Shown one piece after another: positions 25,492-51,251 of a DNA stretch of 52,077 bases (within the stretch, counting starts at the first letter, position 1; each line of letters starts with the position of its first letter). The notes below the pieces were generated by a model, which was not told where the DNA came from, made no database searches, and saw nothing but the letters and a program-made list of their open reading frames with translations. The stretch is from Verrucomicrobiota bacterium (GTDB lineage Bacteria > Verrucomicrobiota > Verrucomicrobiia > Limisphaerales > UBA9464), in the NCBI GenBank assembly GCA_947471985.1, contig CANIZL010000044.1, forward strand, positions 1 to 52,077. The letters run 5' to 3'. Made by a program: the position numbers and the translations under genes.

Positions 25492-26544
25492 TCAGACAAT
25501 CAGGTCCCAGCTCAATGGTGTGCCGCGGACAATATCCCGCGCCGCCCGTCGACCGAGGACTTCGGGCAATTGTTTGACGGGCAGACCAAATCCCGGTCGA
25601 ATGGAACGGAGGTTTTGCGCGGTGAAGAGTTCGCCCGCACGCACGTCCGCGACCACAAACAGTGAGCGCCGAAAAATGCGGCTGGCGCCTTCCTTTTCGG
25701 TCACCGTGTAACTCACCGATCCCAGCGCCCGCTCAGTGACGCGGATGGCGTCGACCATGGCCTTCAACTCGGCCGGTTCGAGCGAGAAGGCGCTATCGGG
25801 TCCCGGCACCGCCCGGCTTTCCGTAAAATGCTTTTCCACAATGCACGCGCCCAGCGCCACCGCGGCCACCGGCACCGCATAACCGAGCGTGTGATCCGAA
25901 AGTCCGGCCGGCACGCCGAACGCTTCACCCAGGTGAGGAATGGTCCGCAGATTCATTTCTTCCGGCGGCGACGGATAAGCGCTGGTGCACTTGAGCAGGG
26001 CCAACTGCCGACCACCGGCTTCGCGAAACGCCGTCACGGCGTCATGGATCTCCGCCAGACTGGCCATGCCCGTCGACATGATCACCGGCTTGCCCGTCGC
26101 TGCCACGCGTCGCACCAGCGGCAAATCCACCAATTCAAAGGAGGCGATCTTGTGCGCCGGCACCTCCATCGCCTCCAGAAAATCCACCGCCGTGGCATCG
26201 AAGGGCGTCGAAAACAGGAGGATCCCGATCTGATCGGCCAGTGCCTTCAGGCGGGGTTGCCATTCCCACGGCGTATAAGCCTCGCCGTACAACTCATGCA
26301 GCTGGCGCCCCGCCCACAAGGTCCCTGCCCCGATCTGAAACCACGGCTGATCGCTTTTAATGGTGAGCGTATCGGCGGTATAGGTCTGCAGTTTGACCGC
26401 GTCCGCGCCACACTCCTTGGCCAGGCGGACCAGGCGGGCCGCCTGTTCATAGTCCTGCCCGTGATTGGCGGAGATCTCGGCGATGATGAAGGCCGGATGC
26501 CCGGCACCAATGCGGCGTCCGGCGATTTCCATGGTCGGTATCAT
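25492..26544 (-). CDS. pseI: Pseudaminic acid synthase (PseI/NeuB family)
   Basis: Predicted 350 residues. N-terminal NeuB TIM barrel: IIAEISANHGQ (20-30), GADAVKLQTYTADTLTI (46-62), EAYTPWEWQPRLKALA, FSTPFDATAVDFLE, KIASFELVDLPLV, VIMSTGMAS, and the metal-binding EKHF. A C-terminal SAF (antifreeze-like) domain covers about 285-350 (RRSLFVVADVRAGE through GRRAARDIVRGTPL). The EAYTPWEW and FSTPFD wording and KLQTYT favour the Pse branch over sialic acid NeuB. The reaction condenses a 2,4-di-amino-substituted 6-deoxy-altrose with phosphoenolpyruvate. ATG 26542-26544 follows the pseG-fusion stop by 10 bp; the open frame extends upstream but only into that gene. Here the incoming sugar may be N-formylated (see the fusion upstream). 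Confidence 0.93.
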   Translation of the reverse strand: MIPTMEIAGRRIGAGHPAFIIAEISANHGQDYEQAARLVRLAKECGADAVKLQTYTADTLTIKSDQPWFQIGAGTLWAGRQLHELYGEAYTPWEWQPRLKALADQIGILLFSTPFDATAVDFLEAMEVPAHKIASFELVDLPLVRRVAATGKPVIMSTGMASLAEIHDAVTAFREAGGRQLALLKCTSAYPSPPEEMNLRTIPHLGEAFGVPAGLSDHTLGYAVPVAAVALGACIVEKHFTESRAVPGPDSAFSLEPAELKAMVDAIRVTERALGSVSYTVTEKEGASRIFRRSLFVVADVRAGELFTAQNLRSIRPGFGLPVKQLPEVLGRRAARDIVRGTPLSWDLIV

Positions 26545-26554
26545 ATCAATTCGC

Positions 26555-28255
26555 TCAGTCCTTGGCCGTGATCCGGAGTTCATACCGGCGACCCTTCCAG
26601 TCAAAAAATGCCGGGTACCGTTCGTTGTCCACCACCCGCAGCAGATTGAACTGCTCGGCCAAGGTGAGTGTCGGATCCAACCGGCTGTCGGCCGCCGTGC
26701 GACGACGGTAACGACTCTCCTCCCCCAATTGCGCGCGGCCATCCGTGACACTGTCGGGGAAATGACGCACGAACTCCTCGCAAAGATCCAAGATGCGCGC
26801 CGCGAGGGGGGCCTGCAGTTCACCGATTAACTCCGTACCCCGGTATCGCACCATCGCCTGCCCATAAATCGCCCCGGCATCAATCGCTTCGACCGCTTCG
26901 AAAAGCGTCAGGGGAATCTCGTCGCGCCCCTCCAGAATTTGCCACGTTAGTGGCGACATCCCCCGGCCTTGCGGCAGCGCGCTGGCATGCACCACCAAAT
27001 TGTGCCGACTGCGGCCCAGCACGGCGGACGGCACCTTCCGCTCGCAGCTCAACAAAAAGGCCAGGTCCCCACCGGGCGGAATTTCGTCCGCCGATCCCCG
27101 GAGCCGAACCTCACCCCATTCCTTAAGGCGCTCGCACAACTGAGCCGCGTACGGGTGGAACCAGGAGTGAGGATTATCGACCACCACCGATATCCGCAAC
27201 GCCCCTCGCAGGTCGCGGCCGGATCCGCGCAAAAACGAGGCGACCCGGGAAGCGCCGCAGCCATCCACCGCCGCCCGGCCGGCTCGCGCCATGCGATCGC
27301 GCAGCTCCGGTTGGCCAGCTAATTCCTGAATGGCGCTCCGCAAGCCCGCCGCAGTGATCTCGCTGTGCCACCCAAGATCCCGCCCCGCCCCGGCCGCCAT
27401 CATGGCCCGGGCGATGGGACGTTGATTGTCCGCCAACGCCACCAGCAACGCCGGCACACCCAGGCGGCAGAGTTCCCAGCACGTACTCCCCGCCCCCACC
27501 AAGGCCAGGTCCGCCCACGCCAATTGCGCCGGCATATCCGTCACGGCCGATACCACCTCCATCGGCGTGCCCGCTGCGGCCGCCCGTTGCCGCAAGGCAT
27601 CGCCCCGGGGATTCGCCGGCCCCACCAACACGCGAACCCGAACGCCGGGCACGGGAACTTCCGTCAACGCCTGCAACACCCGGCCAGTGAGATCCACCGG
27701 ATCCGCACCGCCAAAACTCACCAGCAGGTGCGTCTCCTCGTCTGCCGCCGTGACCCGCGACGATGCGGGTCCCCGAAATTCCCGACGCAACATCGCGAGA
27801 TGCGATCCCAGGAGGAGGCGAGTACCTTCCGGGCTGCCCGCATACCAGGCGGCTTCGGCTCCGAGGTTTTGATTCAGCACGGCATCGACGTCATACGGCC
27901 CCAGCGTGCCGTCGTCGTCTAGCAGCAGAATGCGCAAACCGCCGGCGCGAAGTCGTTGACGGTACCCGGCGCCAAAATGATATCCGTCCAGCACCACCCA
28001 GATCGCTCCCATCCGCCGGGCCAAGGCACACGTGAGCTCGGCATCCTCATCGCTGCCGGCGACGGCCGCCACCGACTCCACCCCGCATTTTTCGGCCACG
28101 AGTCTGGCGTGCAACGCCTCCGGCAATTCCGCCGCGACAAACACCACATTGCCGCCCGCATCCTGCCACGCCTGCGCCAAGGCCAGGCAACGGAAGACAT
28201 GGCCGGTCCCCCGGACGGACGAGGCATCGGCCCGAATCAACAACGTGTCAGCCAT
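26555..28255 (-). CDS. PseG hydrolase fused to a sugar N-formyltransferase-like domain
   Basis: Predicted 566 residues, about twice a normal PseG. Residues 1-345 are PseG: RADASSVRGTGHVFRCLALA carries the catalytic-type histidine H19 in GTGH, and ALVGAGSTCWELCRLGVPAL (251-270) is the UDP-binding donor half. Residues about 353-566 are a second domain: ISVVVDNPHSWFHPY, then NLVVHASALPQGRG (419-432), AIDAGAIYG with D459, and the tail SRLDPTLTLAEQFNLLRVVD, ERYPAFF. That is the methionyl-tRNA formyltransferase fold with H423 and D459 kept; the position of the usual catalytic Asn, two before His, is V421. The fold suggests N-10-formyl-THF-dependent N-formylation. The second domain's predicted native start is a TTG at codon 353. 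ATG 28253-28255 is chosen. The gene lies between an SDR and pseI, so formylation should happen on the nucleotide sugar or the freed altrose. Confidence 0.88.
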   Translation of the reverse strand: MADTLLIRADASSVRGTGHVFRCLALAQAWQDAGGNVVFVAAELPEALHARLVAEKCGVESVAAVAGSDEDAELTCALARRMGAIWVVLDGYHFGAGYRQRLRAGGLRILLLDDDGTLGPYDVDAVLNQNLGAEAAWYAGSPEGTRLLLGSHLAMLRREFRGPASSRVTAADEETHLLVSFGGADPVDLTGRVLQALTEVPVPGVRVRVLVGPANPRGDALRQRAAAAGTPMEVVSAVTDMPAQLAWADLALVGAGSTCWELCRLGVPALLVALADNQRPIARAMMAAGAGRDLGWHSEITAAGLRSAIQELAGQPELRDRMARAGRAAVDGCGASRVASFLRGSGRDLRGALRISVVVDNPHSWFHPYAAQLCERLKEWGEVRLRGSADEIPPGGDLAFLLSCERKVPSAVLGRSRHNLVVHASALPQGRGMSPLTWQILEGRDEIPLTLFEAVEAIDAGAIYGQAMVRYRGTELIGELQAPLAARILDLCEEFVRHFPDSVTDGRAQLGEESRYRRRTAADSRLDPTLTLAEQFNLLRVVDNERYPAFFDWKGRRYELRITAKD

Positions 28256-32024: not shown

Positions 32025-33659
32025 TCATTGGCCTGACCGCGCAGGCCAGAGCGCCGGGTTCAACAAGCCTTCCGGCAGGCCCGCAAATTCGGCCGCTAAC
32101 TCGGCACCTACCGCCTTCGGAAGCGACGCGCGTCGGAAATGGCCAATGATTTCTAGCAGTTGCAGCGACGAATCCACCCCCACCACCACCCCGTGAATCC
32201 ACGGCTGCGAGCGAACATAGGCCAGACACAAATCCATGCGATCCTGTCGCCCCAATCGACTCACCCCATCGTCCAACCGGGCCAGCAGATCCGCCGGATC
32301 CACGCCGGGAATGCTCGGCCAGAACTCTGCGGAATTGAGCAACAAGCCCTGCAAAAACACCGATCGAACGTGAATCGCCACGTCCGGGCGTTGTCGGGCG
32401 AGTTCATCAATCCCGGCGGAACGCCAGCGGTGATCCAATAGATTGAAGGGAAATTGCAGGTGTTGAATCGCCGCATCAGCCAAGGCTGCGGCCGCCTCGG
32501 CGGGCGTCGAAACAGAGGCGCCGAGGCGCTCAATCACCCCGGCCGTTTGCAATTCCACCAGACGTTCCCAGACCGCGCCCTGCCAATCGTTCCGATGACT
32601 CCAGCGATGCAGCAGCACGACCGGCAGAACGTTTCGGCGCAATTCCCGGCAGGAACGAAACACACTCGCCTCCACGGCGATACGCACCGCGTCACGTCGG
32701 TCCTCCGGTTTAAGCTCCGCCAATGGGTCCAGTTTGGTGATCAACCGCGGCGAGCTTCCCAATCCCACCACGGCCGCACCCAGCAATTCCTCCGCCTCGC
32801 CGTAAGCGCGCGCCGTATCAAATTCACGCACGCCGTGGGTCACCGCGCCGCGCACCAGCTGGAGGGCCGATGTACGCGGAAGTTGTCCCGTGCGATTGGT
32901 GCGCCCGTAATGGGGCAGGCCCAGTTGAGCGCTGCCCAGGACCAAGGTCGGCTCGCCACATGCCGATCGCAGCTGGGGCTCCGGATAGTTCCGCTCCAAG
33001 CGCTGCAATAGTTCAGCCCAGGAAACCCGCACCGGATCCTCAACGCCAGCCAGGATCGCCACCGCGCGTTGATAATCGTCGTAACTGTCCACCGTGCAGC
33101 GCAGGTGACTAAAATCCCCCACCAATTCCCCGGGGCGAAACGGCGTCGTGCCGCGTCGCAGTGAAACGGTCACATGCTCCCGGTCGGCGGCGTCAGCCCC
33201 GGCCGCAGCGATTCGACGCAAGGCCCCCAGGCGAAACACTTCGGCACTCAATCCATAGGGCAGGCCGTCGGCCGGCGAATGCGTGCCCAGATAGTCCCCG
33301 CCCTGTTGCTGAAATCGGGCGCATAATTCCTCCACGAAACGGCCGTCGGGAAAAACATTATCCGCCGTCAATCGCACGATCTGCGTCGCATCATCGCACT
33401 CATCGGTGGCTCCCAGAAAACGTTCCAGCACGTTCTCCAACGAGCCCCGTACGCAACGGATCCCCGCCTGTTCCACCGTTGCGGCCAGGCACTGATCCTC
33501 GGCGGTATCAGAGGTGGCCACCACGACCGACAATCCCGTATTGGCCGCCCGCCGCGCCGCCAATACCACCAGCGGCAGTCCTCCCACTGGGAGCAGAACT
33601 TTGGCCGGCAGCCGCGTGCTTCCCGTGCGGGCCTGCAAGATAACTCGCGTCGTGGTCAC
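32025..33659 (-). CDS. SpsF-like nucleotidyltransferase fused to an aldo/keto reductase
   Basis: About 544 residues. Residues 1-225 resemble SpsF, but several signature positions are altered: QARTGSTRLPAKVL (M to T, G to A), RGSLENVLERF (D to N), RLTADNVFPDG where the intact copy has ADCPFIDP, and GLSAEVF for GLDVEVF. Residues about 236-544 are an aldo/keto reductase with the tetrad D281 and Y286 (FDTARAYGEAE), K309 (LITKLD) and H351 (VLLHRW), so the reductase looks active. The start GTG 33657-33659 has AGGAAG 7 nt upstream; ATG 33702-33704 is also in frame. The reductase acts on carbonyls with NAD(P)H, and here could reduce a keto sugar in the pathway. Whether the first domain still transfers nucleotides is uncertain. 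Confidence 0.83.
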   Translation of the reverse strand: MTTTRVILQARTGSTRLPAKVLLPVGGLPLVVLAARRAANTGLSVVVATSDTAEDQCLAATVEQAGIRCVRGSLENVLERFLGATDECDDATQIVRLTADNVFPDGRFVEELCARFQQQGGDYLGTHSPADGLPYGLSAEVFRLGALRRIAAAGADAADREHVTVSLRRGTTPFRPGELVGDFSHLRCTVDSYDDYQRAVAILAGVEDPVRVSWAELLQRLERNYPEPQLRSACGEPTLVLGSAQLGLPHYGRTNRTGQLPRTSALQLVRGAVTHGVREFDTARAYGEAEELLGAAVVGLGSSPRLITKLDPLAELKPEDRRDAVRIAVEASVFRSCRELRRNVLPVVLLHRWSHRNDWQGAVWERLVELQTAGVIERLGASVSTPAEAAAALADAAIQHLQFPFNLLDHRWRSAGIDELARQRPDVAIHVRSVFLQGLLLNSAEFWPSIPGVDPADLLARLDDGVSRLGRQDRMDLCLAYVRSQPWIHGVVVGVDSSLQLLEIIGHFRRASLPKAVGAELAAEFAGLPEGLLNPALWPARSGQ

Positions 33660-33718
33660 AGTATGCTTCCTGCGATCAATGAAACCGGTCCTGTGGCGCC
33701 GCATCGCCCCCCGGCGAT

Positions 33719-34873
33719 TCAGCTCAGGATTCCGCTCAGAACCGCCACCACCTGATCCTGCTGCGCGTCCGTGAGGTCCGCATACAAGGGCAGACTGATG
33801 GCCTCCTGATAATAGGCTTCCGCCACCGGGAAATCGCCCGATTGAAATCCCCGATCCCGGTAATACGGCTGCAAATGCACCGGGATGTAGTGCAACTGCA
33901 CCCCGATCCCCTGCGCGCGCAATTCCTCGAACACCTGTCGATGTGTCCGGCGGATGCGCCCCAGTTGCAGGCGGATGACATACAAGTGGAACGCCGATTC
34001 GGTATCGGGGTGCTGCCAGGGAAGTTCCACGGGCAGCGGCGCCAGCAACCGACCATACCGCTCCGCCAACTGCCGACGCCGTTGGACAAACGTGCCCAGA
34101 CGCTCCAGCTGGCTCGCTCCCAAGGCCGCCTGCAGGTCGGTGAGACGATAATTCCAGCCGAGTTCCTGCTGCTGATAATACCAGGGCCCGTGCGTGGGCT
34201 CGGTCATGGCTGCGGGATCGCGCACCATGCCATGACTACGGAGACGCGCCACCCGGGCAGCAAGTTCTGGATTTCGCGTGAGGATCGCCCCGCCTTCACC
34301 GGTGGTGATGATCTTGACCGGATGAAAACTGAAGATCGTGAAATCCGAGTGTTCCCCGCAGCCTACCGGCTGTCCCTGATAGCGGGCCCCCACGGCGTGC
34401 GAGGCATCCTCGATCACCCGAAATCCATACTCCCGCGCCAATCGCGCCAAGCCGACCAGATCGGGGGCCTGCCCGGCAAAATGCACCGGCACCACCACTT
34501 TGGGCCGACGAGCCGCCGGCGTCGCCGCGAGCTTCTTCGCCAGCGCCGTCACGTCGAGATTGTACGTGCGGGGATCGATATCGACGAAGTCGACCTCCGC
34601 CCCGCAATACCGCCCGCAGTTGGCCGAGGCGAGGAAGGTATTGGGCGAGGTCCAGAGCGCGTCCCCCGGTCCCAATCCCAGCGCGAGACACGCGAGGTGC
34701 AGCCCGGCGGTGGCGTTCGCCACGGCCACGGCATGTGGCGCATCGCACGCCTGGGCCAGCGCCCGCTCGAACCGCTCGACGGCCGGTCCCTGGGTCAGGA
34801 AATCCGACCGCAATACCGCCACCACCGCTGAAATGTCGGCCTCGGAAATCGATTGGCGTCCGTAGGGTATCAT
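33719..34873 (-). CDS. pseC: UDP-4-amino-4,6-dideoxy-N-acetyl-beta-L-altrosamine transaminase
   Basis: A 384-residue DegT/DnrJ-type PLP aminotransferase. It opens IPYGRQSISEADI; LTQGPAVERFE is the substrate-entry segment. NATAGLHLA, EDASHAVGARY (155-165) and the PLP lysine K187 in SFHPVKIITTGEGGA follow in order, and the C-terminal LHYIPVHLQPYY binds the UDP-sugar in this subfamily. It matches PseC, which converts UDP-4-keto-6-deoxy-L-AltNAc to the 4-amino sugar using glutamate. ATG 34871-34873 is taken (a TTG three codons earlier is possible). Direct upstream neighbour is pseB, 34 bp away, giving the expected PseB-PseC order. Confidence 0.93.
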   Translation of the reverse strand: MIPYGRQSISEADISAVVAVLRSDFLTQGPAVERFERALAQACDAPHAVAVANATAGLHLACLALGLGPGDALWTSPNTFLASANCGRYCGAEVDFVDIDPRTYNLDVTALAKKLAATPAARRPKVVVPVHFAGQAPDLVGLARLAREYGFRVIEDASHAVGARYQGQPVGCGEHSDFTIFSFHPVKIITTGEGGAILTRNPELAARVARLRSHGMVRDPAAMTEPTHGPWYYQQQELGWNYRLTDLQAALGASQLERLGTFVQRRRQLAERYGRLLAPLPVELPWQHPDTESAFHLYVIRLQLGRIRRTHRQVFEELRAQGIGVQLHYIPVHLQPYYRDRGFQSGDFPVAEAYYQEAISLPLYADLTDAQQDQVVAVLSGILS

Positions 34874-34907
34874 GGGAAACAAAGTCCGGCGGGCGACTTC
34901 CTCCGGC

Positions 34908-35921
34908 TTACAAGGGCTGAAACCCCGCGTCGCAGTGTTGCCGGATCAGCGACCGCAATTGCTCCACCGACAGCCACTCGGCATTCGTCCCGCTGTTATA
35001 CCGGAAGCCATACTCACACTTCCTTCCGTTGAATTGCTTCCGATACGCCTCGGCATCCCAGAACGGCATGCTGGGCAGGATCACAAAATACTTCTCGAAC
35101 TCCAGGGAGTTCAATCCGTCCGTCTCGGTAATCATCTCCTCGTGCAATTTCTCGCCCGGTCGAATGCCCACGATTTCGCGACGGGCGGACGGGGCCACCG
35201 CCTCGGCCACATCATTGATTCGATAACTGGGAATCCGCGGCACAAATATTTCGCCACCCCACATGTGCTCCATGGCGTATTGCACCAACTGCACGCCGTC
35301 CTCGAGGGTGATGTTGAAACGGGTCATGCGCTCGTCCGTGATGGGCAGCACGCCCTGATGCCGTTGTTGGAGGAAGAACGGGATGACGCTGCCGCGGGAG
35401 CCCAGGACGTTGCCGTAGCGCACCACGGAGAACTTGATCGGATGCCGCCCGCGGATCCCGTTGGCAGCGGTGAACAACTTGTCCGAGCACAATTTGGTCG
35501 CGCCGTAGAGGTTGATAGGCGCTGCCGCCTTGTCGGTACTCAGGGCCACCACGGCCTGCACCCCGGCATCAATGGCCGCTTCAATCACATTCTGAGCCCC
35601 CAGGACGTTGGTCTTGATGGCTTCGAAGGGATTGTACTCGGCCGCCGGCACCTGTTTCAAGGCCGCCGCATGAACCACCGCCTCCACCCCCTCGAACGCG
35701 CGACGTAGGCGGGCAGCGTCCCGTACGTCGCCGATAAAATAACGCAGCTGGGGATGCCGGGAAGGCGGGAACTCCTGCTGCATTTCATACTGCTTCAATT
35801 CATCCCGCGAAAAGATCACCAACCGCTCCAGATGCGGCAGCTCCCGCAGGAGAGTTCCCACGAATTTTCGGCCAAAAGAACCGGTCGCGCCGGTCACAAG
35901 ATACGAACGATAAGGCATCAT
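34908..35921 (-). CDS. pseB: UDP-N-acetylglucosamine 4,6-dehydratase (inverting)
   Basis: A 337-residue extended SDR. TGATGSFG is at 10-17 and the catalytic residues appear as LSTDKAAAPINLYGATK, giving D130, K131, Y139 and K143, which match the Asp-Lys-Tyr set of PseB/FlaA1. RYGNVLGSRGSVIPFF and GEKLHEEMI are strongly conserved in the family. The enzyme dehydrates and epimerises UDP-GlcNAc at C5, giving the L-arabino 4-keto sugar that starts pseudaminic acid synthesis. Two ATGs are adjacent (35919-35921 and the next codon). A GGAGG lies farther upstream than usual. It follows the EpsI-like gene by 24 bp. Confidence 0.94.
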   Translation of the reverse strand: MMPYRSYLVTGATGSFGRKFVGTLLRELPHLERLVIFSRDELKQYEMQQEFPPSRHPQLRYFIGDVRDAARLRRAFEGVEAVVHAAALKQVPAAEYNPFEAIKTNVLGAQNVIEAAIDAGVQAVVALSTDKAAAPINLYGATKLCSDKLFTAANGIRGRHPIKFSVVRYGNVLGSRGSVIPFFLQQRHQGVLPITDERMTRFNITLEDGVQLVQYAMEHMWGGEIFVPRIPSYRINDVAEAVAPSARREIVGIRPGEKLHEEMITETDGLNSLEFEKYFVILPSMPFWDAEAYRKQFNGRKCEYGFRYNSGTNAEWLSVEQLRSLIRQHCDAGFQPL

Positions 35922-45854: not shown

Positions 45855-48800
45855 TCACGGCGACCAAGCCCGGAAAAATCGGTTGGCCCCCGCCCCACCC
45901 TCCGTTGGCAGCACCACAAAGCGCTCCCCCGATCCGTCCTCTCCCACCAACACCGGGGCCTCCCCCACCCAGAGGTGCAAATCCGCCGAAGATTCCAACC
46001 GATAATTCCTTCCCGGAGTTCCTTGCAGGCGCAGACGAATCCCGGCGGGCTCCACCGTCACCGCGGTAAAAGTCGGTGCCACCGCCGGAGCGAGCACCGT
46101 CAAGCGAACCGGTCCCGCACTGACCGACCCGACCCGATTGGAAACGGATACCTGATAATCCCCCGCGTCGCCCAAGGTTGCGCTGGCGAGGGCGAACGTG
46201 GCGAGAGTCGCGCCGGGCAGATCGGCCCCATCGTGATGCCATTGGTAGGTAAGGTCGGTACCCGTTGCCACCACCCGAAACTCCACCGCGGTACCAGCAG
46301 TCACCGTTGGGGAGGTCGGAGGCGTAATAATCTGCGGCGGATCCTGGATCACCAACTCGAAGGGATCACTCGTCACCGAACCCACCGGGTTCTGCACCCG
46401 CACCTGGTAGGTGCCCGAGTCCGACGGTTGCACCGCTGCTCGCGGCCAGACGGCGGCCTGCGGGGCAGCGGCCACCTCCACACCACCGCGCAGCCAGTGA
46501 TACTCACGCGGTTCACTGCCCGTCGCCACGACCTCCAGAAGCACCTCCGCACCGGTGGCCGCGACCAGCGAAACCGGCGCCCGGACAATCACTGGCGGGG
46601 ACGCCACGGTGAGCTGCGCCGGACTGCTTTCCACCGACATCGCAGTGTTGCGGACGACGACCGTGTAGACGCCCGCATCCGCCGCCAGCAACGCGGGAAA
46701 GACCAACGTGGCATTGGTCGCCTTGAGCAAATCCACGCCGTCGCGCCGCCATTGGTAGCGCAATGGGCCGTCCCCGGTGGCGACGACTTGGAGCGTAAAG
46801 GGCCGGCCGGCCACCGTGTTGGTTCCAATCGGTGGCACCTGGATCGAAATCGGTACGCCCACCGTGAGGGAGGCGGGACTGGAAGCAACGGAGCCGGCGA
46901 GGTTGGCCACCGTAACCGTGTAACTGCCCACCTGCGCCGCCGTCACGGCCGGCAGGAGCAAGGTGGTGACGTTGGTCCGGATGGCGACCGTCAAACCATT
47001 GCGGCGCCACGTAAAGGTCAACGGCGCGGTGCCCGTGACGCCCACGCTGAATTCCGCCGCCGCACCGGCGGCCACCACGATTGCGGCCGGCTGGCGGGTG
47101 ATCGTGGGTTTGACGAAAACTCGAACGACTGCGGGTGCACTGGTCACGGCTCCGTAGAGGTTGCGAGCGATGATTCGATACTCCCCGGAATGGCTCTCCC
47201 CGACGGCGTGCAAGCGGAGATTCGATTGGGTTTCCCCTGCCAGCTCCACCCCATTCTTGAGCCATTGATAGGACGCCGGGGTTTCGCTCGTCACCAACGC
47301 AATTAATGTACGATCGACTCCGGCCACCAAATCCGCGCCTTGCGGTTGGATCACAAACTGCGGGCCAACCCCCACCACCACGACGGCCGGCGTCGATTCA
47401 ATCGTTCCTTTTCGATTACTGACCCGCACCGAGTAGTTGCCCGCCATCGCCAGCGTGGCGGGTCCGATATTCAATTCGGAATCGGTGGCACCGCTGATCT
47501 CCGTTCCATCCTTGAGCCATTGCAGCGTCGGAGTCGGGAAGCCCGCAGCCGCCACGCGCAGGGTGGTGGTCGCACCCACGAACAAAGTCGCATCCATTGG
47601 AGGGATCACGATAAACGGCGCCGTGTCGATGCCGGGATCCAGCACGTGAATTTCCGCGGGGGACGAAACCACGCTACCCGCCGGATTCTCCGCCCGCACG
47701 GTGTATCGACCGGTGTCCGCCAGCTGCAGGGACGCAAACAACAGCACGGCCTGCGTGGCTCCGGGAATCGGCTGATCATCCTTGAACCACTGCCACTGGG
47801 GCGCCGGGGCGCCGCTCGCAACCACCTCGAGTTTCCCGCTTTCACCAATCAGCCCGACGAATCCTGTCGGCGCGCTCACGATGCTGGGCGCAACCCAGAT
47901 CGTCAGGCTCGCCTCGTTGGTCACGGATCCGGAAACGCCCCCCACCGAGACCTGATACCGACCACCATCGGCGAGCACGGTGGCAGGAATCTCCAACCGG
48001 TCACCCGTGGCACCCGGCAGCAGGACACCGTCGTGCCACCAGCGATAGGTCAGCGGCGGCGTGCCGCCCGCCCGCACCTCAAACTGGGCGGGTTGTCCCA
48101 ACACCACCGCCAAATTGGTCGGCGCCACGGTAATGACCGGCCCGGAATTCACCGTAACCAGGACCGGAGCGCTGGTAACACTGCCCGCCACATTGCGGAT
48201 CAGAACCTGAAATTCCACGCTTCCGGGCACCGCCGGCAGGCCACTGACGTTCAGCGTGGCATTGGTTCCACCAGCAATGGGAACGCCGGCCTGGCGCCAT
48301 TCATAGAGCAGCGGAGCCGCTCCGGTCGCCACCACGGAAAGCACAAACGGTGCCCCCGCCAGCACCGTGCGATTGCCCGGCGCCTGGGTAATGCGCGGTC
48401 GTTCCAACACCATCAACAGTGCGGGATTCGAAGTCACTGTTCCCTGCGCGTTGCTGACGCGTACCCGGTAAGTCCCCGTCGCCAGGGGCGTCACCGCGCT
48501 CAGCAACAAGATGGCATTGATCGCACCCGCAATGGGGGCATCGTTCTTCAGCCATTGATACTGCAGCGGCCCCGCACCCACGGCGGCGACCGAGAACTGC
48601 GCATCCGCTCCTTCATTCACCGATCGATCCTGTGGTTGCGTTACCACTTCAGGTGTCGCCAGCACCGTCACCGCAGCCCGGCTGCTCAGAACGTTTCCTC
48701 CCGCATTGCCGACCTGGCACCAATACTCGCCGGCATCCGCGGATTGCCCACCGACGAACGTCAGTACCGACTGAGTGGCGCCAGGAACCGCGACACCCCC

Positions 48801-51110
48801 GTGCAACCATTGGAACGTCAGGGGTTCGGTGCCGGTGGCCTCCACCCGCAGGGCGCCGGACTGACCGGACGTCAACGACAAAGGTTCCGGTTGCCCCACG
48901 ACACGCACCGGCACGAGTACGTCGTCGCGGGTCAATCCCTGCAATTGCAGTTCCATTCGCAAGTCGACGTCCGTCGGCCGCCATTGATGCAACTCCACGG
49001 CCACGACATTGGTTCCCGTCAACCAGGCCGCGGAATTCAACACCGCCACCGAGAATTGGTGGGCCTCCGTCTCCGTGGTTTCGCCTCGTGGCAGGGTCAG
49101 AAAATTCACGGGTCCATCGGGCAGATTTCGCCGCCACACTTCCTGCCCGTTGAGGTAGACCACCGCCGCATCATCCACCTGCATCGCCAGTCGGGCGCCC
49201 AGGAAATCGGCGGGATTATCGACGAGGAATTGCCGACGAAAATAAGTGGTGATCCAGCGCCCCGATGGATTCGGCCCATACCGGACTACTGTGCCCAAAT
49301 CGGCATAGCCATAGCCCAAGGGCGCCGGCCCACGCCCCCAACCGGCGTCCGAATAAGCCACCGACCGCCAGTCCGCCGGGGGATTCGATCCGTCGTCGTG
49401 AAAACGCCAACCGGCTCCCGTTGGCACCAAGGTGACCGACCGCAGGCCCGCCACGTCGTAAAAGGTGAAATCAGCCACCGTCCCGGTCCCGGTCCCCGCC
49501 AGCTGGATTCCCCGTTCAGAGGGATCGACCAAGCCGGCTTCAGCGAGCGGACGGACGGTATACGAACCCGCGTTCGCACCGGTGAAAACATATCTCCCCG
49601 TCGCATCGGTAAGGGTTGATTGATTTGCCCCCAACGTCACCCACACGCCCCCAACGCCCAGTCCGTGGCTATCCCGGATAAATCCCGCCAGGCGGCCGGT
49701 GTTGACGGCCCCCACGGCCACGATGGTTTGCACCACCGCGATCCCACCTTTGCCATCGGAGACCGTGCAGCGAACGAGGTAGTCACCCTCCGCCGAAAAG
49801 GTTTTGGCCACCGCGGCGGCATCCGGTCCGAAAGTACCGTCACCAAAGTCCCAGGCGTAGCTCAAGAAATCCGCATCGGCGTCGGCCGCCGTCACGGTGA
49901 AGTTCAGCGGCGAATTCACGGCGGCGGTGGACGCCGCCGGGGCGAGGCTGGCGGTGGGTGGATGGTTCCCGGGGAAGTTGCCCAGCTGAATCTCCACGTC
50001 CAACGACGCCGGAACACCCGCCGCGGCTGGATGCAGCCCGCGGTTCCGAAAATGCAACCCGGCGGCACGATCACTGAAGGTCCACCCCGGCTGCAATGCC
50101 GCGTCGCGGAAGGCACCACGTGAGCCTGGCGTGGTATCCAGCAGCAAGGTGGGACGGGCATTGTCCTCCGCCCATCGAATGGCCAATGAATTGGTCCAAC
50201 CCGGGATATTCACCAGCTGTTGACGCAATTCCAGCCAGTAATTGGTGAGGGAACTGCGGGCCAGCACCAGCGCGCGAGGCCCCGGCGCCGCCGTGATGAC
50301 GTCATCGGCGTAGACGCGGTAAACGCCACTGGTCTCTACTCGACGCACTTCGTCCGCGGTCAGCCAGCCGAGTTGGGCCTTCTTCTGCGCGTTGAAATGG
50401 TGGGTCAATCCCGTGCTGCGACTCATCGAGTCCGAGACATCGGCATATTCCAACTCCTGCCCCGCCCCGGTCGGCGGCCCACCGGCCGTATCCCAGGCGT
50501 TGGCGTGATTTAGACCGAAATTGTGTCCCAATTCGTGCACCAGATTGCCCGGCTCCAGAAACGAATCCCGCAACCAGGCACCCCGGGAACCGACGTTGGC
50601 GAACCCGGAAAAATTGAAGGCCGGCCCGTTCGCCGGTCCGAAACAGATCACGTCGAGATCAAAACCACTGGGATCAAACCCCGCGGCGCCGGCCGCCAGC
50701 AGCGCGTCGTCCCGGAGTCGACCGACCCCGGCAATGCCATAGACTGATGCCGGCAGCGGCAGGCGCAGCACGGGGGTCACGGCGGAACCACCCGCAGTCA
50801 GCGGGGCCAGACGAAGCCGTCCCACCGACATCTCCGCAAACATCTGGTCCGCTCCCTGCACCAAGGACGTCGCGGTACCCTCATCCAGGGGACTCCCCGG
50901 CAGGTCGGAAAAATCCACGCGCACCATCAGCAATCGCAGCGTTCCCTGGGCTGGGAGGGCCGCCGGCCGGGCGCGCTGGCGGGCCCACTCGGCCGCGGCC
51001 ATCGCCGGCGGCGACGCCACACCGCAATGCCAAATTCGCTCCTGGGCCTGAACGAGCGGTAGTCCGAGCCAAAGAAACAGTAAGTAGATCGGTGGAAGGT
51101 GACGGACCAT
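45855..51110 (-). CDS. Secreted multi-domain metalloprotease with PKD and eleven Ig-like modules
   Basis: A 1751-residue exported protein. Signal peptide about 1-22 (hydrophobic PPIYLLFLWLGLPLVQA, cleavage near A22). Peptidase domain about 50-370: the zinc motif is HELGHNFGLNH at 192-202 and a Met-turn-like YADVSDSM follows at 222-229, as in gametolysin-type (M11/related) proteases. Then PKD-like 383-467 (YAWDFGDGTFG), a carboxypeptidase-regulatory-like module about 470-553, a carbohydrate-binding-like domain about 555-730, eleven Ig-like repeats 735-1675, and a C-terminal 76-residue domain with YRLESSADLHLW, a tail I associate with verrucomicrobial secreted proteins. The role is probably extracellular degradation or adhesion to proteinaceous or glycoprotein material. 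ATG 51108-51110 is the only start preceding a signal peptide. Confidence 0.9.
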   Translation of the reverse strand: MVRHLPPIYLLFLWLGLPLVQAQERIWHCGVASPPAMAAAEWARQRARPAALPAQGTLRLLMVRVDFSDLPGSPLDEGTATSLVQGADQMFAEMSVGRLRLAPLTAGGSAVTPVLRLPLPASVYGIAGVGRLRDDALLAAGAAGFDPSGFDLDVICFGPANGPAFNFSGFANVGSRGAWLRDSFLEPGNLVHELGHNFGLNHANAWDTAGGPPTGAGQELEYADVSDSMSRSTGLTHHFNAQKKAQLGWLTADEVRRVETSGVYRVYADDVITAAPGPRALVLARSSLTNYWLELRQQLVNIPGWTNSLAIRWAEDNARPTLLLDTTPGSRGAFRDAALQPGWTFSDRAAGLHFRNRGLHPAAAGVPASLDVEIQLGNFPGNHPPTASLAPAASTAAVNSPLNFTVTAADADADFLSYAWDFGDGTFGPDAAAVAKTFSAEGDYLVRCTVSDGKGGIAVVQTIVAVGAVNTGRLAGFIRDSHGLGVGGVWVTLGANQSTLTDATGRYVFTGANAGSYTVRPLAEAGLVDPSERGIQLAGTGTGTVADFTFYDVAGLRSVTLVPTGAGWRFHDDGSNPPADWRSVAYSDAGWGRGPAPLGYGYADLGTVVRYGPNPSGRWITTYFRRQFLVDNPADFLGARLAMQVDDAAVVYLNGQEVWRRNLPDGPVNFLTLPRGETTETEAHQFSVAVLNSAAWLTGTNVVAVELHQWRPTDVDLRMELQLQGLTRDDVLVPVRVVGQPEPLSLTSGQSGALRVEATGTEPLTFQWLHGGVAVPGATQSVLTFVGGQSADAGEYWCQVGNAGGNVLSSRAAVTVLATPEVVTQPQDRSVNEGADAQFSVAAVGAGPLQYQWLKNDAPIAGAINAILLLSAVTPLATGTYRVRVSNAQGTVTSNPALLMVLERPRITQAPGNRTVLAGAPFVLSVVATGAAPLLYEWRQAGVPIAGGTNATLNVSGLPAVPGSVEFQVLIRNVAGSVTSAPVLVTVNSGPVITVAPTNLAVVLGQPAQFEVRAGGTPPLTYRWWHDGVLLPGATGDRLEIPATVLADGGRYQVSVGGVSGSVTNEASLTIWVAPSIVSAPTGFVGLIGESGKLEVVASGAPAPQWQWFKDDQPIPGATQAVLLFASLQLADTGRYTVRAENPAGSVVSSPAEIHVLDPGIDTAPFIVIPPMDATLFVGATTTLRVAAAGFPTPTLQWLKDGTEISGATDSELNIGPATLAMAGNYSVRVSNRKGTIESTPAVVVVGVGPQFVIQPQGADLVAGVDRTLIALVTSETPASYQWLKNGVELAGETQSNLRLHAVGESHSGEYRIIARNLYGAVTSAPAVVRVFVKPTITRQPAAIVVAAGAAAEFSVGVTGTAPLTFTWRRNGLTVAIRTNVTTLLLPAVTAAQVGSYTVTVANLAGSVASSPASLTVGVPISIQVPPIGTNTVAGRPFTLQVVATGDGPLRYQWRRDGVDLLKATNATLVFPALLAADAGVYTVVVRNTAMSVESSPAQLTVASPPVIVRAPVSLVAATGAEVLLEVVATGSEPREYHWLRGGVEVAAAPQAAVWPRAAVQPSDSGTYQVRVQNPVGSVTSDPFELVIQDPPQIITPPTSPTVTAGTAVEFRVVATGTDLTYQWHHDGADLPGATLATFALASATLGDAGDYQVSVSNRVGSVSAGPVRLTVLAPAVAPTFTAVTVEPAGIRLRLQGTPGRNYRLESSADLHLWVGEAPVLVGEDGSGERFVVLPTEGGAGANRFFRAWSP
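46086..48908 (-). repeat. Tandem array of eleven Ig-like domain repeats (coding)
   Basis: Eleven modules of 84-89 codons each, with the recurring pattern P...V..G....V.ATG..PL.YQW...G..I.GAT...L....  ...GxYxVxVxN..GSV.SxPA.LTV. Amino-acid similarity is evident but nucleotide identity is moderate, so these are old duplications and not a recent amplification. The first copy alone carries a cysteine in YWCQVGNAGG. Confidence 0.88.
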
Positions 51111-51251
51111 ACGACACGCGAAGCTATACCGGCGCCCCCGGGTACAGCCACCCCGATTCACCGCGCGATCGCCGCCCCATGCAGGCGCAAAGTGCATCGG
51201 GTGCGAGACAAAAATCCTCGAGTCGCTGGATTTCGCCTTTCTGATAAATAA

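Follow-up and report, generated by a model that had tools for sequence, protein, structure and literature searches.

The locus described here raises the question of which enzyme acylates the 4-amino sugar in a pseudaminic acid (Pse) operon that has no acetyltransferase of the PseH type. The window, by which we mean the whole 52,077-nucleotide (52 kb) stretch that was analysed from a 6.38 Mb verrucomicrobial genome, contains a Pse operon in which PseG is joined in one protein to a domain of the formyltransferase fold, denoted here FT2. An initial annotation had proposed that this domain takes over the role of PseH and that the pathway ends in a 7-N-formylated Pse.

The operon and the PseG-FT2 fusion protein

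The operon lies on the minus strand, and its genes follow one another in the order listed, with the parts of the fusion protein given beneath it.

34908..35921, minus strand: PseB, UDP-GlcNAc 4,6-dehydratase (inverting); TIGR03589, 502.6 bits, cut-off 407.75
33719..34882, minus strand: PseC, C4 aminotransferase; TIGR03588, 554.6 bits, cut-off 423.5
32025..33704, minus strand: CTP_transf_3 (SpsF-like) domain fused to an aldo/keto reductase (AKR); PF02348 and PF00248
29847..31925, minus strand: second CTP_transf_3 domain, fused to a class III aminotransferase; PF02348 and PF00202
29129..29821, minus strand: methyltransferase; PF13649/PF08241
28313..29092, minus strand: SDR-family oxidoreductase; PF13561
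26555..28255, minus strand: PseG-FT2 fusion protein, 566 aa; reading frame, profile matches and models
27227..28255, minus strand: PseG domain, residues 1-343, predicted UDP-sugar hydrolase; TIGR03590, alignment with 3hbm, fold match to 3hbm/3hbn
27200..27226, minus strand: short linker, residues 344-352; alignment A3, and a pLDDT block of 81 at residues 341-350
26558..27199, minus strand: FT2 domain, residues 353-566 (214 aa), formyltransferase fold; PF00551, alignment A2 and fold
26987..26989, minus strand: His423 of HASALP, His71 of the FT2 domain; invariant in 70 of 70 sequences
26879..26881, minus strand: Asp459 of IDAG, Asp107 of the FT2 domain; invariant in 70 of 70 sequences
25492..26580, minus strand: PseI, pseudaminic acid synthase (provisional start codon); TIGR03586, 476.9 bits, cut-off 340.25

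No PseF scored above its cut-off in the window operon. Three of the enzymes in this one operon are fusions, namely the two SpsF-like proteins and PseG-FT2. The surrounding polysaccharide genes encode a Wzy_C ligase, two group 1 glycosyltransferases, an epimerase and acyltransferases, and a flippase-like protein near the operon barely reaches its Pfam threshold. A protein of 1780 residues encoded near the cluster (45855-51197) contains ten Ig_3 stretches and one PKD domain.

The continuous 566-codon frame of the initial annotation holds at its coordinates on the minus strand, a strand that had been left unstated: the ATG is at 28255 and the stop codon at 26557-26555, while a plus-strand reading of 26555-28255 is interrupted by stops. 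The motifs by which the two domains had been recognized are all present (GTGH at residues 16-19, HASALP at 423-428 and IDAG at 458-461, as well as GSTCWE), and both domains score above their cut-offs. The PseG half matches TIGR03590 with 185.2 bits against a curated cut-off of 153.55, residues 4-284 covering positions 2-279 of the 280 in the model. His19 (28201-28199), in the GxGHxxR motif, aligns with His17 of Campylobacter jejuni PseG (3hbm), the residue that we take to be catalytic in PseG. A model of the full-length fusion protein, based on 49 aligned rows, has a mean pLDDT of 93.7 and a pTM of 0.85; its Foldseek matches include Campylobacter PseG 3hbm and 3hbn (TM-score by target 0.81 and 0.83, respectively) as well as MurG and formyltransferases. 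Where the FT2 domain begins, a TTG is preceded by GAGGGG (27199-27210, minus strand), which could mark an internal start, either still in use or a relic. The possibility that the fusion arose from misassembly or a frameshift was considered and rejected, since the same domain order is found in one open frame in three other genomes.

Fold and active site of FT2

The FT2 domain matches PF00551 (Formyl_trans_N) over residues 397-471 with 28.7 bits against a gathering score of 26.1. The family is matched at E 0.001 by all 70 rows of alignment A2, which comprises the window sequence and 69 of the 71 loci described below (L102 and L126 were left out). Being of the PF00551 fold, the domain is not a PseH of the GNAT type (TIGR03585). 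The model of FT2, calculated from the 70 rows, has a mean pLDDT of 97.1, and the best matches among solved folds include 1zgh (Z 20.8), HypX (19.3), WbkC (19.2) and ArnA (18.5). Identification of FT2 as a methionyl-tRNA formyltransferase or as ArnA was rejected, as the window domain scores far below the NCBIfam cut-offs (48.9 versus 777 bits for ArnA, 45.4 versus 201.5 for Fmt and 47.1 versus 316 for PRK06988). At E 1e-5, FT2 rows are matched by five NCBIfam models, each a general model of formyltransferases.

The active site of classical N-formyltransferases is an Asn-x-His...Asp triad. Measured against the ArnA/PseJ type this triad is incomplete in FT2, which keeps the histidine and the aspartate. 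Alignments with ArnA and 1zgh place Val421 of the window protein where ArnA has asparagine, and throughout the 70 sequences the position two residues before the histidine is hydrophobic (valine in 63, isoleucine in 5, leucine in 2) and never asparagine. Asparagine aligns at this position in ArnA, WbkC and PseJ, valine in 1zgh, and isoleucine in the hydrolase domain of 10-formyl-tetrahydrofolate (10-formyl-THF) dehydrogenase. Since the classical asparagine is missing from every member, we infer the activity and the 10-formyl-THF donor rather than reading them from the active site. The missing asparagine is not taken as fatal, because 10-formyl-THF dehydrogenase handles 10-formyl-THF without this residue.

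FT2 loci in other genomes

A collection of genome contigs was scanned with a three-sequence alignment and two peptide patterns, and 71 of the 166 matching stretches were kept as FT2 loci; these form a sample and no census. L067 coincides with L033 in genome G056, and one protein is shared by L081 and L130. In 55 of the 71 loci FT2 occupies the slot of PseH, directly between PseG and PseI. Its next upstream neighbour is PseG in 60 loci and its next downstream neighbour is PseI in 60, with matches to PseI on 66 and to PseG on 64 of the 71. Sixteen loci depart from the PseG-FT2-PseI order, some of them because they are cut by contig ends. By the profiles used, four FT2 loci (L072, L093, L116 and L120) have no Pse gene; in L106 and L113 a second formyltransferase follows FT2.

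The complete order PseB-C-F-G-FT2-I occurs in 31 of the 71 loci, and 27 loci are tight operons of this order, with every gap between neighbouring matched domains below 400 bases. From what is known of the pathway, a tight operon of this kind leaves one free amine, that of the PseC product. Where PseG and FT2 are separate genes, 31 of 58 pairs overlap, and in 21 the overlap is 4 bases, as counted from match starts and not from mapped start codons.

The labels on the FT2 tree span ten bacterial phyla and one archaeal assembly; for the Acidobacteriota and archaeal members, no Pse context was found on the locus DNA examined. Within the phylum of the window, 8 of 387 genomes have an FT2 match above 200 bits, three of them fused to PseG (the window, G438 and G400) and one to PIG-L (G056). 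Among the 38 genomes of nearest kin, an FT2 close to that of the window occurs only in its own genome, and the next matches have E values of 1.4e-9 or worse.

FT2 and PseH-like acetyltransferases

The initial annotation had seen no PseH-type acetyltransferase in the operon, and this extends to the whole window: a broad GNAT profile that also matches ordinary GNATs found none in frames of at least 80 aa, so that a PseH elsewhere in the window was rejected. Elsewhere in the genome, where a PseH homologue would bear directly on the proposed replacement, nothing exceeds the TIGR03585 cut-off of 93.1 bits; the two weak matches score 35.7 and 25.5 bits, and they read like ordinary GNATs, with 67 and 100 bits against the broad profile. 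TIGR03585 is a weak test of absence: it misses divergent PseH proteins and gives a PseG-GNAT fusion in genome G242 only 29.6 bits, so the low scores in the source genome are no proof that PseH is absent. For this reason the GNAT profile was built, from PseG-GNAT fusions and annotated PseH sequences; it became broad after iteration. Among the 71 genomes of the FT2 loci, PseH exceeds the TIGR03585 cut-off in two (1 of 50 and 1 of 21): G299, from which L124 comes, and G270, where the frame has a length that agrees with the FT2-GNAT fusion in L095.

The expectation that PseH would be consistently absent from operons with FT2 was not borne out. A GNAT is found in the PseG-PseI slot in 2 of the 71 loci, or 2 of the 66 with PseI, namely L067 (a PseG-GNAT fusion) and L095 (an FT2-GNAT fusion). 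Over a span from about 5.5 kb upstream to about 1.3 kb downstream the count rises to 6 of 71, and anywhere on the locus DNA examined to 17 of 71. Some of these genes lie beside PseC (L084, 4459-5043; L121, 3047-3757) and others about 4 kb after FT2 (L083, L096, L098 and L099), and some GNATs in or near FT2-type Pse clusters adjoin a further DegT-type aminotransferase.

As a control, 60 PseI loci with 1.5 kb flanks were taken, consisting of the best 30 matches in the window's own phylum and the best 30 in the family of Aeromonas bivalvium; the set includes the window itself (L172) as well as L157, L163 and L191, which are identical with L067, L034 and L079, respectively. Upstream of PseI a GNAT was found in 28 of these, and FT2 in 6 (plus one weak match, L149). 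The two never coincide there, and 25 loci show neither of them; in L157, one of the six, a PseG-GNAT fusion lies just outside the flank. A GNAT thus occupies the slot in 2 of 66 FT2 loci, compared with 28 of the 53 PseI loci that have no FT2 upstream (p 1.6e-10, a value that ignores kinship, with a few genomes shared between the two sets). L169, from the genome of L134, was counted as having no FT2 despite a PseG-FT2 fusion about 4 kb upstream, which weakens the contrast and does not help it. Between PseG and PseI of related loci, FT2 and the PseH-like GNATs are mostly alternatives to one another, and the exclusion of acetyltransferases by FT2 is not absolute.

Fusions and exchange of acyl modules

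A search for the same fusion in other genomes found three more PseG-FT2 proteins in a single frame: L122, from a Legionellaceae assembly, and L134 and L137, from two genomes of the same class. All four fall in one 13-member clade (100/100) of a 76-row tree, within which they do not form a single group; the best tree, whose bootstrap had not stabilized, requires three changes, two of them forced by starred branches, and the fusions may have had one origin or several.

In 10 of the 30 best PseI matches of the window's own phylum, PseG and a PseH-like GNAT form one protein, so that the window protein looks like a fusion of this type in which the acyl module has been swapped. A Priestia plasmid cluster, with PseC, a spore-coat-type (SpsF-like) gene, AKR, SDR, PseG, PseH and PseI, comes close to the backbone of the window operon and has PseH in the place of FT2; the class III aminotransferase is not listed there. 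In a gammaproteobacterial assembly (L095, 8989-10203), FT2 and a PseH-like GNAT share one frame, so that both acyl modules are in one protein.

A comparable exchange can be read from published islands. According to PMC7874193, the Aeromonas islands IA, IB and IC share one gene order, and the gene between pseG and pseI is PseH in IB and a 'glucuronic acid dehydrogenase' in IC, the group that includes A. bivalvium. In the A. bivalvium locus L079 (8995-9645) this slot gene encodes an FT2 protein of the formyltransferase fold; the published name probably derives from an ArnA-like annotation.

Proposed role of the fusion protein

We consider it likely that the window protein is a bifunctional Pse enzyme in which FT2, in place of PseH, adds a formyl group to the C4 amine that PseC has made, after which PseG removes UDP. 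FT2 sits where related clusters usually keep the acetyl-adding enzyme, and therefore the finished sugar probably bears a formyl in place of an acetyl group. The acceptor would be UDP-4-amino-4,6-dideoxy-L-AltNAc and the donor most likely 10-formyl-THF; the PseG domain would then strip UDP from the formylated sugar, and PseI would condense the resulting 4-formamido sugar with phosphoenolpyruvate to 5-acetamido-7-formamido-pseudaminic acid, which an SpsF-like cytidylyltransferase probably activates. The tether would link two consecutive steps of the pathway; that it also channels the intermediate, as the initial annotation proposed, is conjecture. Of the original proposal, the replacement of PseH stands as most likely, the slot being very likely and the formylated product probable; formyl as the acyl group, its transfer from 10-formyl-THF, the UDP-sugar acceptor and the final product are what we infer from fold and context. 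Because GNATs occur on 17 of the 71 FT2 loci, our confidence in this reading is slightly lowered, and the class III aminotransferase in the operon, which could make another amine, also speaks against it.

That aminotransferase leads to an alternative in which FT2 formylates a different amine, either N5 after deacetylation or the product of the class III aminotransferase, while C4 is acylated by another enzyme. Some FT2 loci (L067, L113 and L117) do carry a PIG-L deacetylase together with a second formyltransferase, FT1; PIG-L also stands beside the fusion in L137 and after PseI in the genome of L134 (L169), and in the window the class III aminotransferase is itself fused within the operon. However, PIG-L occurs in only 4 of the 71 FT2 loci, the 27 tight six-gene operons leave no room for a further enzyme, and the window has neither PIG-L nor an FT1-only frame, which together make this alternative unlikely.

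We regard as rather unlikely that an unlinked GNAT supplies the PseH activity and that FT2 is accessory to it, which would give mixed acyl groups at N7. The two GNAT matches elsewhere in the genome could be such enzymes, the clusters of L067 and L095 each contain both types, and the GNATs on other FT2 loci point the same way; against this, the two matches fall far short of the PseH cut-off and resemble ordinary GNATs, and the genome has a single match each to PseI and to the fusion protein. That FT2 transfers no formyl group to an amine, acting instead as a 10-formyl-THF hydrolase or with another acyl donor, would agree with the hydrophobic residue that replaces asparagine in all 70 sequences, as in the hydrolase domain of 10-formyl-THF dehydrogenase, but is very improbable given the invariant histidine and aspartate, the strong conservation, the operon slot of an N-acyltransferase and the ability of the dehydrogenase to handle 10-formyl-THF without asparagine.

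Relation to known systems

A 7-N-formyl route to Pse is not new. The FT2 profile matches the PDB entries named 'formyltransferase PseJ' (6ci2, 6ci4, 6ci5 and 6edk), presumably from Anoxybacillus kamchatkensis, and PseJ reportedly formylates the PseC product en route to 7-formamido CMP-Pse. PseJ, which the PDB names as a formyltransferase in the Pse series, is a short, one-domain protein and is collinear with FT2 over about 150 residues. However, PseJ scores only 37 bits against the FT2 profile (E 1.6e-8 and 2.3e-8), whereas 1zgh reaches 82 bits and ArnA as much as 73; it keeps the asparagine (I-N-L-H) that FT2 lacks, and its chains in the PDB, 192 and 217 aa long, include no PseG.

The sugar N-formyltransferases ArnA, WbkC, VioF, FdtF and Rv3404c share the fold of FT2 (Z 17-19), and the histidine and aspartate of ArnA are aligned with those of FT2; unlike FT2, ArnA and WbkC have the asparagine, and these enzymes act on other NDP-sugars. 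The closest match by fold (Z 20.8) and by profile (82 bits) is 1zgh, a 'methionyl-tRNA formyltransferase' of Clostridium thermocellum, which likewise lacks the asparagine but belongs to the FT1 family (224 bits), found beside PIG-L. The nearest counterpart in architecture is the PseG-PseH chimera of A. caviae Sch3N, cited in PMC7874193, in which PseG is followed in one chain by a 4-N-acyltransferase of the same pathway, as in the window. Chimeras of the PseG-PseH type were also found here (L005, L007-L010, L033 and L035), with a GNAT and not a formyltransferase fold as the acyl module.

7-Formamido Pse itself is described from the marine Pseudoalteromonas distincta KMM 638 and from the pilin glycan of Pseudomonas aeruginosa 1244. 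The excerpted text of PMC5109656 gives Geobacillus islands of type III with fmt2 and without PseH; types II and IV also lack PseH, and fmt2 is named there for type III only, so that a missing PseH alone implies no formyltransferase. In PMC6137143, an N-formyltransferase is proposed for 5-N-formyl-legionaminic acid in Halorubrum. None of the literature searched describes PseG joined to a formyltransferase, treats FT2 as a family, reports the biochemistry of any FT2 member or uses names of the Pse5Ac7Fo type. What is new is the PseG-FT2 fusion and the widespread, unnamed family to which its second domain belongs, while the 7-formamido route varies one that was already known.

Implications for pseudaminic acid clusters

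A module of FT1 (the family of 1zgh) and PIG-L was observed in several Pse clusters, alongside PseG-GNAT or FT2, at the following places.

L035, 9808-11210: FT1/PIG-L module
L113, 9617-10997: FT1/PIG-L module
L117, 10687-12058: FT1/PIG-L module
L067, 7364-9651: FT1/PIG-L module

This pairing suggests that the N5 acetyl group is removed and a formyl group put on, with Pse5Fo7Ac or Pse5Fo7Fo as predicted products. A broader reading, to which we give an even chance, would take FT2 as a large, unnamed family of N-formyltransferases without the asparagine that replaces PseH across many phyla. 7-N-formyl-Pse would then be a common bacterial surface sugar, and would have escaped notice through annotation of the gene as ArnA-like or as a 'glucuronic acid dehydrogenase'; PseG would have been fused repeatedly to GNAT or FT2, and the operon, together with PIG-L and FT1, would form a readable code for the acyl groups at N5 and N7.

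The family poses the mechanistic question of how a formyltransferase fold would function without the asparagine. Pse clusters are usually read as pointing to the diacetyl sugar. Should FT2 signal formylation at N7, product predictions would change for Aeromonas, Vibrio, Halomonas, Devosia, Marinobacter and others, and the change would touch flagellin glycosylation, phage receptors and serotyping.
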